In this document: piece by piece, positions 20,443 to 48,049 of the stretch
Layout: each line of letters opens with the position of its first letter
Numbering within the stretch: position 1 is the stretch's first letter
Assembly: GCF_902498065.1 (NCBI RefSeq)
Contig: NZ_CABVIR010000003.1
Location: 248,001-312,000, forward strand
Source: Pseudomonas fluorescens
GTDB lineage: Bacteria > Pseudomonadota > Gammaproteobacteria > Pseudomonadales > Pseudomonadaceae
Direction: 5' to 3'
Length of the DNA stretch: 64,000 nucleotides
The notes under the pieces: model-generated
What the model was told of the DNA's origin: nothing
The model's database searches: none
Seen by the model: the letters and a program-made list of their open reading frames with translations, nothing else
Made by a program: the position numbers and the translations under genes

Positions 20443-20500
20443 AAAAAGGCGCCCCCCTGTAGTAGCGAGCAAGCTCGCTCCTGCAGGGGGGCGCCTTTTT
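20443..20500. terminator. bidirectional terminator with a REP palindrome in its loop
   Basis: Arms AAAAAGGCGCCCCCCTG (20443-20459) and CAGGGGGGCGCCTTTTT (20484-20500) are perfect over 17 bp. Between them lies a second palindrome, AGCGAGC-AA-GCTCGCT (20464-20479), of REP type. It ends both the LysE gene and the convergent envelope operon. Confidence 0.9.
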
Positions 20501-45111: not shown

Positions 45112-45780
45112 ATGAGCGCCATTGAATCTGCTTTCATGAATCTGGCTTATCCTCCGCAGCTCGATCTGGGGCCGCAGCTTACACACGAACAATTGCTCAG
45201 CTCGATGCAGTCGACCATGGCGCGCCACAAGGGTGGGCCGGTCTGGCTGTTTGCGTATGGCTCGCTGATCTGGCGTCCAGAATGTGCGGCGGTCGAACGC
45301 GTTCGCGGCCGGGTGCATGGCTACCATCGCGGTTTGTACTTGTGGTCTCACGAACATCGCGGCACGCCGGAAGTGCCAGGGCTGGTGTTTGGCCTGGATC
45401 GCGGCGGTTCTTGCAGCGGCTTCGCATATCGCTTGCCGGAAGAACAACTCGAAGCCTCTCTTTACGCGTTGTGGCAGCGCGAAATGCCATTCCCTTCATA
45501 TCGCCCACACTGGCTCAACTGCCGTCTCGAAGACGGAAGCCAGGTTCAGGCGTTGGGGTTTGTGTTGGAGCGACACTTGCCCAGCTATGCCGGTAACTTG
45601 CCGGATCACGTGCTGAGCCATGTGTTTGAAAACGCTCGCGGGCGTTACGGTACCACTCGCGATTATGTCGAGCAGACCGCCAACGCCCTGCGTAGCCACG
45701 CCATGCCAGACCGGAATCTGGAGGCGCGGCTCAAGCGCTGCAAATCAAAGGTCGATCAAGCGATGGCTTCGCGGGACTGA
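45112..45780 (+). CDS. chaC: ChaC-type gamma-glutamylcyclotransferase
   Basis: A 222-aa enzyme of the ChaC/GCG family that cleaves glutathione to 5-oxoproline and Cys-Gly. The substrate loop YGSLIWRPE (residues 49-57) and the [21 protein letters not shown] strand are diagnostic; WQREM near residue 123 contains the conserved Glu region. The gene overlaps the end of glpT (opposite strand) by 25 bases. Upstream lies the AT-rich palindromic region, which may regulate it. Confidence 0.9.
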
Positions 45781-47105
45781 CTGGCGACCTGTTTGTGCCA
45801 CAAGGTTGGTGCAAGGAACGCCATCGCCAGCAGGCACGCGCCGATCAGCAGGACGAAACCGCCGTCCCAGCCGAAATGGTCCACGGTGTAGCCCATGGCT
45901 GCACTGGCCGCGACTGAACCACCCAGGTAACCGAACAGACCCGTGAAGCCCGCTGCGGTACCGGCGGCTTTCTTCGGTGCCAGTTCCAGCGCCTGCAAGC
46001 CGATCAGCATCACCGGACCGTAGATCAGGAAACCAATCGAGATCAGCGCGATCATGTCGACCGTCGGGTTACCGGCCGGGTTGAGCCAATACACCAACGT
46101 CGCTACGGTCACCAACGCCATGAACACCATGCCGGTCAGGCCACGGTTGCCACGGAAGATCTTGTCCGACATCCAGCCGCACAACAGCGTCCCGGGAATA
46201 CCTGCCCACTCGTAGAGGAAATACGCCCACGAGGTTTTATCCACGCTGAAGCCTTTGGCTTCCTTGAGGTAGGTCGGTGCCCAGTCCAGCACGCCGTAGC
46301 GCAGCAGGTAGACAAAGACGTTAGCCATGGCGATGTACCAGAGCATTTTGTTGCGAAGCACGTATTTGACGAAGATTTCCTTGGCGCTGAATTCCTCTTC
46401 GTGACTGGCGTCGTAGCCTTCCGGGTAGTCGTTCTTGTACTTCTCGATCGGCGGCAGGCCGACCGATTGGGGCGTATCGCGCATCGTGGCGAAGGCAAAC
46501 ACCGCCACGGCCATGGCCACTGCAGCAGGCACGTAAAACGCCGCGTGCCAGTCATTGAACAGGCCCATGCCGAGCAGGAACAGCGGGCCGATCAAGCCGC
46601 CGCCGACGTTGTGCGCCACGTTCCACAAGGACACCACGCCCCCGCGTTCCTTCTGCGACCACCAGTGGACCATGGTCCGGCCACTCGGCGGCCAACCCAT
46701 GCCCTGCGCCCAGCCATTGATAAACAGCAGGATGAACATGATGGTCACGCTGGACGTCGCCCAGGGCGCGAAACCGAAAATGAACATCACGCCGGCAGAA
46801 ACCAGCAGGCCGAACGGCAGGAAGAAGCGCGGGTTGGAACGGTCGGAAACAATGCCCATCAGGAACTTGGACAGGCCGTAGGCGATAGCAATCGCCGACA
46901 ACGCCAGGCCCAGCTCGCCGCGGGTATAGCCCTCTTCGATCAGGTAGGGCATGGCGAGGGAGAAGTTTTTGCGCAGCAGGTAATAACCCGCATAGCCGAT
47001 GAAGATGCCGGCGAAGATCTGCCAGCGATGGCGTCGGTAGGCGCTGTCTATTTTTTCTTCAGGCAATGGAGCCTGATGTGCGGCAGGACGAAAGAAAGCA
47101 AACAT
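45756..47105 (-). CDS. glpT: GlpT, glycerol-3-phosphate/phosphate antiporter
   Basis: A 449-aa member of the major facilitator superfamily (OPA family) with 12 membrane helices, importing glycerol-3-phosphate in exchange for phosphate; it is also a fosfomycin entry route in pseudomonads. The substrate-binding residues known in E. coli GlpT appear at the same positions: Arg45 (YYLLRKN), His165 (WNVAHNVGG) and Arg269 ([10 protein letters not shown]). The leader carries a concentric inverted repeat around a GlpR-like palindrome. Confidence 0.96.
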
Positions 47106-47434
47106 TCAAGAGCTCCAGTTTTCTTGTTTTGACTGCGGATGCGAATGTTACAGTTTCGTTACCGAAAATAGCACTGGTTCGCATCCTCAAAACAGCGGAA
47201 ATGTTGGAGATCGCATGTTCTTTTACGAACATGTCGCTCAGGTATAAGTGAAGGGCGCTGTGGGAATTGTTACCTGACGATCCTTTATGACGCGGTTTTG
47301 TCCAGAGTAGGGCGGGGCTTTGGGAAATGTCCTGCGTCTAAAGGGGAAGCCATGGCGTTATGCAAAAAATCATCGAGCCTTAACCTTTGTGCTGTTGCCA
47401 GATTTGGCTTTTCAGTCGCGAAGGAGTGGGAGTT
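47106..47434. other. glpT / TonB-like gene divergent intergenic region
   Basis: This 329-bp space holds the glpT control region at its left end (47126-47193). From 47200 to 47434 it contains no gene; a purine-rich AAGGAG at 47420-47425 serves the TonB-like gene. Confidence 0.6.
47126..47193. promoter_or_regulatory. concentric inverted repeat / GlpR-like operator before glpT
   Basis: Inner palindrome TTTCGTTACCGAAA (47154-47167) resembles the TTTCG/CGAAA glycerol-3-phosphate repressor sites of Pseudomonas. Around it lie the arms GGATGCGAA (47137-47145) and TTCGCATCC (47178-47186), extended by GTTTTGA (47126-47132) and TCAAAAC (47187-47193) with four extra bases on the left. The two palindromes share a centre within a base. 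Confidence 0.5.
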
Positions 47435-48049
47435 ATGCGGTGGTTGTTGTGTGTGCTTTTGCTGGTTTTGTCCATCGAAGTCAGGGCTGGCGAGGTGTTC
47501 CTGATTCCGGAGAACAATCCCAAGCCGGTTTACCCTGTAGCACTTTCCCGAAGCGGTATAACCGGCGCGCTGAATGTCAGTTTTACCGTCCATGCCGACG
47601 GATCGGTGAATCAGGTAGAGGCTTCAAAGGACGCTCATCCCGACTTTGTCGAAGCCTCCCGAACGGCGGTGAGCCAATGGCGATACAAGCCCTGGGAGAT
47701 TTCCATCGAGCGACCCGCGCAAATCCAGGTGGTCGCGCCAATGGTGTTCAGGCTGGACGACAAGATGCCGATTCATGCCAACGAGGAGTTGAAAAAGTTG
47801 AGTTGTGGTGAGGTCGCCAAGGCAGCACTGCGGCTTGCAAACTACTCGTGGGTGGACATGCCGGTGTTCAGCTGGACGCGCAGTTACCTCACCCACTCCC
47901 TTGCCCCCACGCAATTGCCGGAGGCGAGACGTCTGGAACTCATCGCTAAACTCAACAAGAGCGTGCCTTCGATTATTCGGCGTTGTAATACGCATCAGGC
48001 GTCACGGTATGTGCGTTTTCTTCCGAAGGAAATTCGTGAGTTACTTTGA
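47435..48049 (+). CDS. periplasmic protein with a TonB-like C-terminal-type domain
   Basis: A 204-aa exported protein. The signal peptide MRWLLCVLLLVLSIEVRA is cut near residue 18. The TonB-type domain follows: NPKPVYPVALSRSGITGALNVSFTVHADGSV with EASRTAVSQWRYKPW, the pattern of energy-transducer C-termini. The last 100 residues are a separate helical segment with Cys pairs (LSCGEV and RRCNTH). It has no membrane anchor, so it is not a functional TonB. A substrate- or partner-binding role is possible. AAGGAG supports the start. Confidence 0.75.
   Translation: MRWLLCVLLLVLSIEVRAGEVFLIPENNPKPVYPVALSRSGITGALNVSFTVHADGSVNQVEASKDAHPDFVEASRTAVSQWRYKPWEISIERPAQIQVVAPMVFRLDDKMPIHANEELKKLSCGEVAKAALRLANYSWVDMPVFSWTRSYLTHSLAPTQLPEARRLELIAKLNKSVPSIIRRCNTHQASRYVRFLPKEIRELL

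Follow-up and report, generated by a model that had tools for sequence, protein, structure and literature searches.

Two candidate GlpR operators and a probably incidental outer repeat in the glpT leader of Pseudomonas

The leader of glpT in Pseudomonas fluorescens most probably contains a promoter in which a GlpR-like operator (O1) adjoins the -10 region, a second one (O2) lies 63 bp upstream and repression is exerted through the two of them, the outer inverted repeat around O1 being incidental. The observations behind this reading are conservation, drift, operator matches and spacing, as seen in the window (the whole stretch of 64,000 nucleotides that was analysed) and in related leaders. 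In such an arrangement, GlpR on O1 would block RNA polymerase at the -10 region until released by glycerol-3-phosphate, and O2, located about six helical turns upstream, would probably raise the occupancy of O1, either by cooperative binding or via a short loop. The 5’ arm of the outer repeat would be drifting DNA that is partly similar across a clade and matches in full in the window alone. Two-operator repression by GlpR is a known kind of system, and this pair, so read, is a further example of it. The features of the leader are as follows.

45756-47105, minus strand: glpT, a glycerol-3-phosphate transporter of 449 aa (NCBIfam NF008433, 868.2 bits; TIGR00712, 781 bits; both above the cut-off).
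47121-47128, minus strand: AACAAGAA, an A-rich motif of the AANAANAA (Crc/Hfq) type in the predicted 31-nt 5’ UTR; frequent in leaders.
47126-47145, minus strand: 3’ (downstream) half of the outer repeat, TTCGCATCC followed by GCAG and TCAAAAC; conserved, with 2.2, 2.2 and 2.7 changes per site.
47136, minus strand: predicted transcription start, a G (97% G in the column) placed by homology with the P. aeruginosa glpT start.
47145-47150, minus strand: probable -10 hexamer TAACAT (TAATAT or TAAAAT in relatives), placed relative to the homologous start; columns 76-100% conserved.
47154-47167 (20-bp site 47151-47170), minus strand: O1, the inner palindrome TTTCGGTAACGAAA, GlpR-like by consensus match and conservation, adjoining the probable -10 hexamer.
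47178-47193, minus strand: 5’ (upstream) half of the outer repeat, GTTTTGA and GGATGCGAA; not conserved as a whole, with 18.4 and 13.0 changes per site.
47214-47233, minus strand: O2, the GlpR-like palindrome CATGTTCGTAAAAGAACATG, centred 63 bp upstream of O1; at 16/20, the best match in the window to the E. coli GlpR consensus.

The closest named GlpT, from P. migulae, is 100% identical to the window protein. As expected for a GlpR operator, glpT is a glp regulon gene and the genome encodes a GlpR, within a glpF-glpK-glpR-glpD cluster (glpK was identified by eye); this GlpR narrowly passes the NF008154 cut-off (331.9 bits against 331). The neighbour that is divergent from glpT (47435-48049) matches the TonB-type C-terminal domain TIGR01352 at 27 bits, against a curated cut-off of 27.1.

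For comparison, 176 glpT leaders were gathered, namely, the window, 80 loci from named genomes and 95 loci from further relatives, some genomes being present in both sources. After leaving out L175 and L176, 174 leaders were anchored at the GlpT start, and removal of redundancy yielded 159 distinct leaders of 203 nt. Arm pairing was counted in 127 distinct in-register segments; a subset of 100 rows, including the window, has 3’ arms that are letter-identical to those of the window. Change rates are parsimony counts, averaged over sites, from a gene tree of glpT with 117 tips (rows with the whole gene). At one locus in this set (G108:C1:5615006-5616354, L176 and L177), two overlapping GlpT matches indicate that the gene is likely frameshifted. 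In the genus to which the P. aeruginosa-like genome G414 belongs, a close GlpT (E at most 1e-120) was detected in just 1 of 25 genomes.

Potential GlpR sites were sought by scoring 20-mers against the E. coli GlpR consensus; as a control, the E. coli glpD operator scores 20/20. On this scale O1 scores 15/20, and only three 20-mers in the 64-kb window reach at least 15/20, all of them within the glpT leader, so that the palindrome matches well above background. It is also conserved in orthologous promoters: the TTTC-N6-GAAA core is retained in 157 of the 159 distinct Pseudomonas leaders, 117 of which are identical to the window, and the inner core averages 1.0 change per site. The core is missing from L108, where a substitution has altered the first arm, and from L174, a divergent leader. 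The suggestion of the first-pass annotation that this palindrome is a GlpR-like repressor site thus gains sequence support from the consensus match and the near-invariant core in the genus; binding of GlpR to O1 and O2 is putative. In the literature searched, mainly open-access papers, we met no report of a GlpR operator mapped at glpT in any Pseudomonas; in the accessible part of PMC12519775, P. aeruginosa glpT has positive values (1.42 and 2.31) in the table that belongs to the section on GlpR loss. The 20-mer scan also finds GlpR-like sites upstream of glpD in this genome. A P. aeruginosa GlpR consensus has reportedly been published. Genome-wide, the pattern TTTCGNNAAYGAAM has five matches, including glpT and glpD, against two for the reversed control, and the O2 pattern has a single match (glpT), as does its reversed control. 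Because the reversed controls also match, the patterns by themselves do not prove a regulon, and this weighs against the two-operator reading.

O2, which the first-pass annotation did not include, is a better candidate for the second operator than the outer arms, judging by its match and its recurrence. A site scoring at least 11/16 against the O2 of the window is present in 149 of 157 leaders, compared to 64 of 3000 shuffled upstream regions, although these are not 149 independent observations, the rows being related and having been aligned by their best match with the window’s own O2. The core GTTC-N6-GAAC is found in 119 of the 157. O1 and O2 are 61-65 bp apart in 138 of the 157, and when O2 is self-aligned in these rows, GTTC and GAAC are 92-100% conserved. 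In O1-anchored columns, the O2 stretch appears as variable as the spacer (19.2 changes per site), an effect of shifts of 1-2 bp in the spacing. The remaining 19 leaders lack O2 at that distance: divergent rows have weaker upstream candidates at 51 bp (5 rows) or 40 bp (10 rows), which score 9-13/16, and four rows have theirs at other spacings; the upstream sites were picked by best score. A third GlpR-like 20-mer (47200-47219, 15/20), between the repeat and O2, is probably due to chance, given the poor conservation of its columns. No O2-like site was seen by eye upstream in the P. aeruginosa-type leader L182.

At 10.5 bp per turn, distances of 40, 51, 63 and 84 bp correspond to 3.8, 4.9, 6.0 and 8.0 helical turns, which hints at placement of the paired sites on the same face of the DNA; for looping, the spacings are no more than suggestive. 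In a single row (L112), the upstream site (score 13) is at 71 bp, or 6.8 turns. The glpD layout resembles that of glpT. Among 30 glpD loci sampled from the 39 genomes having glpD, all 30 carry an O1-like TTTTCGNAAATGAACAT site, after which glpD leaders have a TTCG (L181:1775-1920 and L192-L221). In 24 of them, one of the two best upstream matches is a half-match at 83-84 bp, with scores of 7-12/16 that are mostly no better than those of shuffles. A broader and distinctly more tentative scheme, which we rate as possible but on balance doubtful, is that glpT and glpD of Pseudomonas are both repressed through same-face pairs of GlpR operators, with GlpR and the activator ANR competing for the palindrome in P. 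aeruginosa. Under that scheme, the spacings of 61-65 bp in most glpT leaders (51 or 40 bp in the divergent ones) and of 83-84 bp in glpD, being close to whole turns, would point to a short repression loop.

The position of O1 within the promoter follows from homology. In P. aeruginosa, as described in the available portion of PMC6110920, 5’-RACE placed the glpT start at a G that precedes the start codon by 39 bases and follows a proposed ANR site by 18; both distances, counted by hand, lead to the same base in L182, and the window base aligned with it is G47136. The resulting leader would be 31 nt long and would include neither O1 nor the 5’ arm. No good candidate for a -35 element was seen at the glpT promoter, and a simple sigma-70 scan found no promoter at this place. 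Within the predicted leader, 144 of the 157 sequences have AANAANAA ahead of the ribosome-binding site of glpT, compared to 6.5% of shuffles, as expected of a Crc/Hfq-type motif, at which binding is putative. An indirect effect of Hfq was suggested, in the accessible text of PMC6237836, from a P. aeruginosa fusion ending at -27; by its position in L182, this fusion would exclude the AANAANAA motif.

The P. aeruginosa data also raise the alternative that O1 is an activator site for ANR, an FNR-type protein, instead of a GlpR operator, which we consider unlikely. According to the available part of PMC6110920, the ANR footprint at P. aeruginosa glpT extends from 47 to 73 bp upstream of the gene, and the protected TTCAT-ttac-GAAAA, which agrees with TTGAT-N4-ATCAA at 6 of 10 positions (counted by hand), aligns with O1; this footprint on the homologous palindrome counts against our preferred explanation. 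In L182 (1440-1482), the same published footprint spans the O1 homologue, so that a single site may serve both GlpR and ANR. However, the corresponding TTTCG-gtaa-CGAAA in the window agrees with the FNR-type consensus at only 4 of 10 positions (by hand), below what would be expected of an ANR site, compared to 15/20 for the GlpR consensus. Furthermore, relative to the predicted start, the palindrome occupies about -18 to -31, a position that is typical of a repressor.

The repeat itself is as first described, with the palindrome TTTCGTTACCGAAA (47154-47167, self-complementary in 6 of 7 pairs) enclosed by GTTTTGA (47126-47132), which pairs with TCAAAAC (47187-47193), and by GGATGCGAA (47137-47145), which pairs with TTCGCATCC (47178-47186). 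The arms of 7 and 9 bases, the 16 matched bases and the four-base insertion on one side (CTGC, 47133-47136) are all present. The assertion that the palindromes share exactly the same centre holds to within one base, but the centres are not identical (47159.5 for the outermost arms, 47161.5 for the second arms and 47160.5 for the inner palindrome). At one pre-chosen site, the outer-arm score is equalled by composition-matched random flanks once in 4000 trials (Gumbel p 1.3e-4). Of 3988 centres sampled over the window, 11 score as high, and among 143 comparable 14-base palindromes, 5, at four places including this one, are enclosed by a concentric outer repeat of equal or greater strength. Thus, the original statement that such a coincidence is unlikely by chance was overstated, and the concentric repeat is mildly unusual, not striking. 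Higher-scoring concentric outer repeats surround palindromes at 20465, 57056 and 62032, and some of the other concentric repeats in the window may be real hairpins.

The two halves of the outer repeat evolve at very different rates. The 5’ arm changes at a rate comparable to that of the adjoining spacer (15.8 changes per site, 117 tips), whereas the 3’ arm is fixed, probably conserved as promoter and leader because it covers the -10/start region together with the A-rich motif of the leader. The TTCGCATCC arm fills the interval from the -10 hexamer, with which it has one base in common, to the predicted start, and the TCAAAAC arm extends into AACAAGAA. All 16 outer pairs occur only in the window among the 127 distinct rows, the next best being 14 pairs, in six rows; likewise, among the 100 rows with identical 3’ arms, which range from 6 to 16 matches, the full 5’ arm is present in the window alone. 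The nearest relative, L004, has GTTTTGTCGATGCGAA in place of GTTTTGAGGATGCGAA and differs at two arm sites, 47186 and 47187, at which the window’s base is shared by 4% and 13% of the rows; here, we infer rather than observe the direction of change. Since only two arm sites differ from this relative, an origin of the 5’ arm by template switching is unneeded.

Several observations nevertheless stand against an incidental outer repeat. Across the 100 rows, the 5’ arm matches the 3’ arm in register at 73%, compared to 13-36% for slid controls. Total arm pairing in the in-register segments (1195) exceeds the maximum in 500 column shuffles (1152; none reaches the observed value). GATGCGAA is present in 42 of the 100 rows, the TTCG within the 3’ arm shows 93-99% conservation, and the CGAA/TTCG contained in the second arms is the core of a GlpR half-site. 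These features could reflect additional weak GlpR half-sites on either side of O1, of which the 3’ one would be general and the 5’ one clade-specific, an arrangement that we view as unlikely, even though glpD leaders carry a further TTCG at a similar place. No 20-mer centred on the arms reaches 12/20 against the GlpR consensus, the GTTTTGA/TCAAAAC arms contain no half-site, and a 5’ arm that changes at the spacer rate opposite a fixed 3’ arm is not the pattern of paired operators; the proposal that the outer arms are flanking second operators is accordingly not sustained. The excess pairing over column shuffles was not taken as covariation, since both arms have diverged between distant clades through descent; with GATGCGAA common in one clade and the 5’ arm mutating at the spacer rate, the residual similarity of the arms is explicable by shared descent as well. 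A weak role of the 5’ arm in one clade may exist. The outer repeat was rejected as a covarying structure: one arm varies, the other is fixed, and the compensatory changes expected of an RNA leader are not found. Related leaders keep the inner palindrome while the 5’ arm drifts, the very outcome named beforehand as evidence against a function. On these comparisons, the outer repeat is a strain-specific near-coincidence with no supported function.

Also unlikely is an RNA hairpin, in which a longer transcript from an upstream promoter would allow the outer and inner arms to form a stem, either masking the A-rich motif or terminating transcription. An 81-nt stretch of the window does fold to -26.7 kcal/mol (z -4.1; none of 200 shuffles folds as well), and the 3’ arm overlaps the AANAANAA motif, but the 31-nt RNA from the homologous start (known from the available part of PMC6110920) has no such stem (z +0.7), the 5’ arm drifts, and the stretches of four relatives, which start at the second arm and differ in extent from that of the window, fold weakly (z -0.25 to -1.7; L004, with the locus in the wrong orientation, was left out of this comparison). 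Because the P. aeruginosa start aligns with G47136, O1 and the whole 5’ arm should be untranscribed, which removes one side of the hairpin that had been proposed for the 5’ leader.

The preferred arrangement, two GlpR operators at the glpT promoter, resembles the E. coli glp regulon (glpD, glpTQ, glpACB and glpFK), in which the glpT and glpD promoters likewise carry GlpR-consensus palindromes, more than one per promoter. It differs in the number of sites: the window leader has two clear sites about 63 bp apart and one doubtful site, compared to 4-8 sites per operon in the four E. coli operons known earlier to be under GlpR control (as stated in the accessible part of PMC7567609). In our scan, the E. 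coli glpT-glpA intergenic region yields matches of only 13-15/20. The P. aeruginosa PAO1 glpT promoter, as far as it is covered by the available portion of PMC6110920, shares the homologous palindrome, the -10 element, the start site and the A-rich leader, but there the palindrome region is assigned to ANR, and L182 shows no counterpart of O2 by eye. The A-rich AANAANAA targets of Pseudomonas Crc/Hfq (PMC3003667, available part) are similar to the glpT leader in that the motif lies immediately upstream of the ribosome-binding site; the main text of that paper contains no occurrence of glpT, and Crc/Hfq control of the gene is putative.

With the unsupported secondary structure removed, the elements of interest in this leader are O1, O2 and the A-rich leader. 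GlpT is a route of glycerol-3-phosphate uptake and, in P. aeruginosa, the sole known fosfomycin transporter (as cited in the accessible parts of PMC6237836 and PMC6110920), so the logic of the glpT promoter bears on drug uptake.
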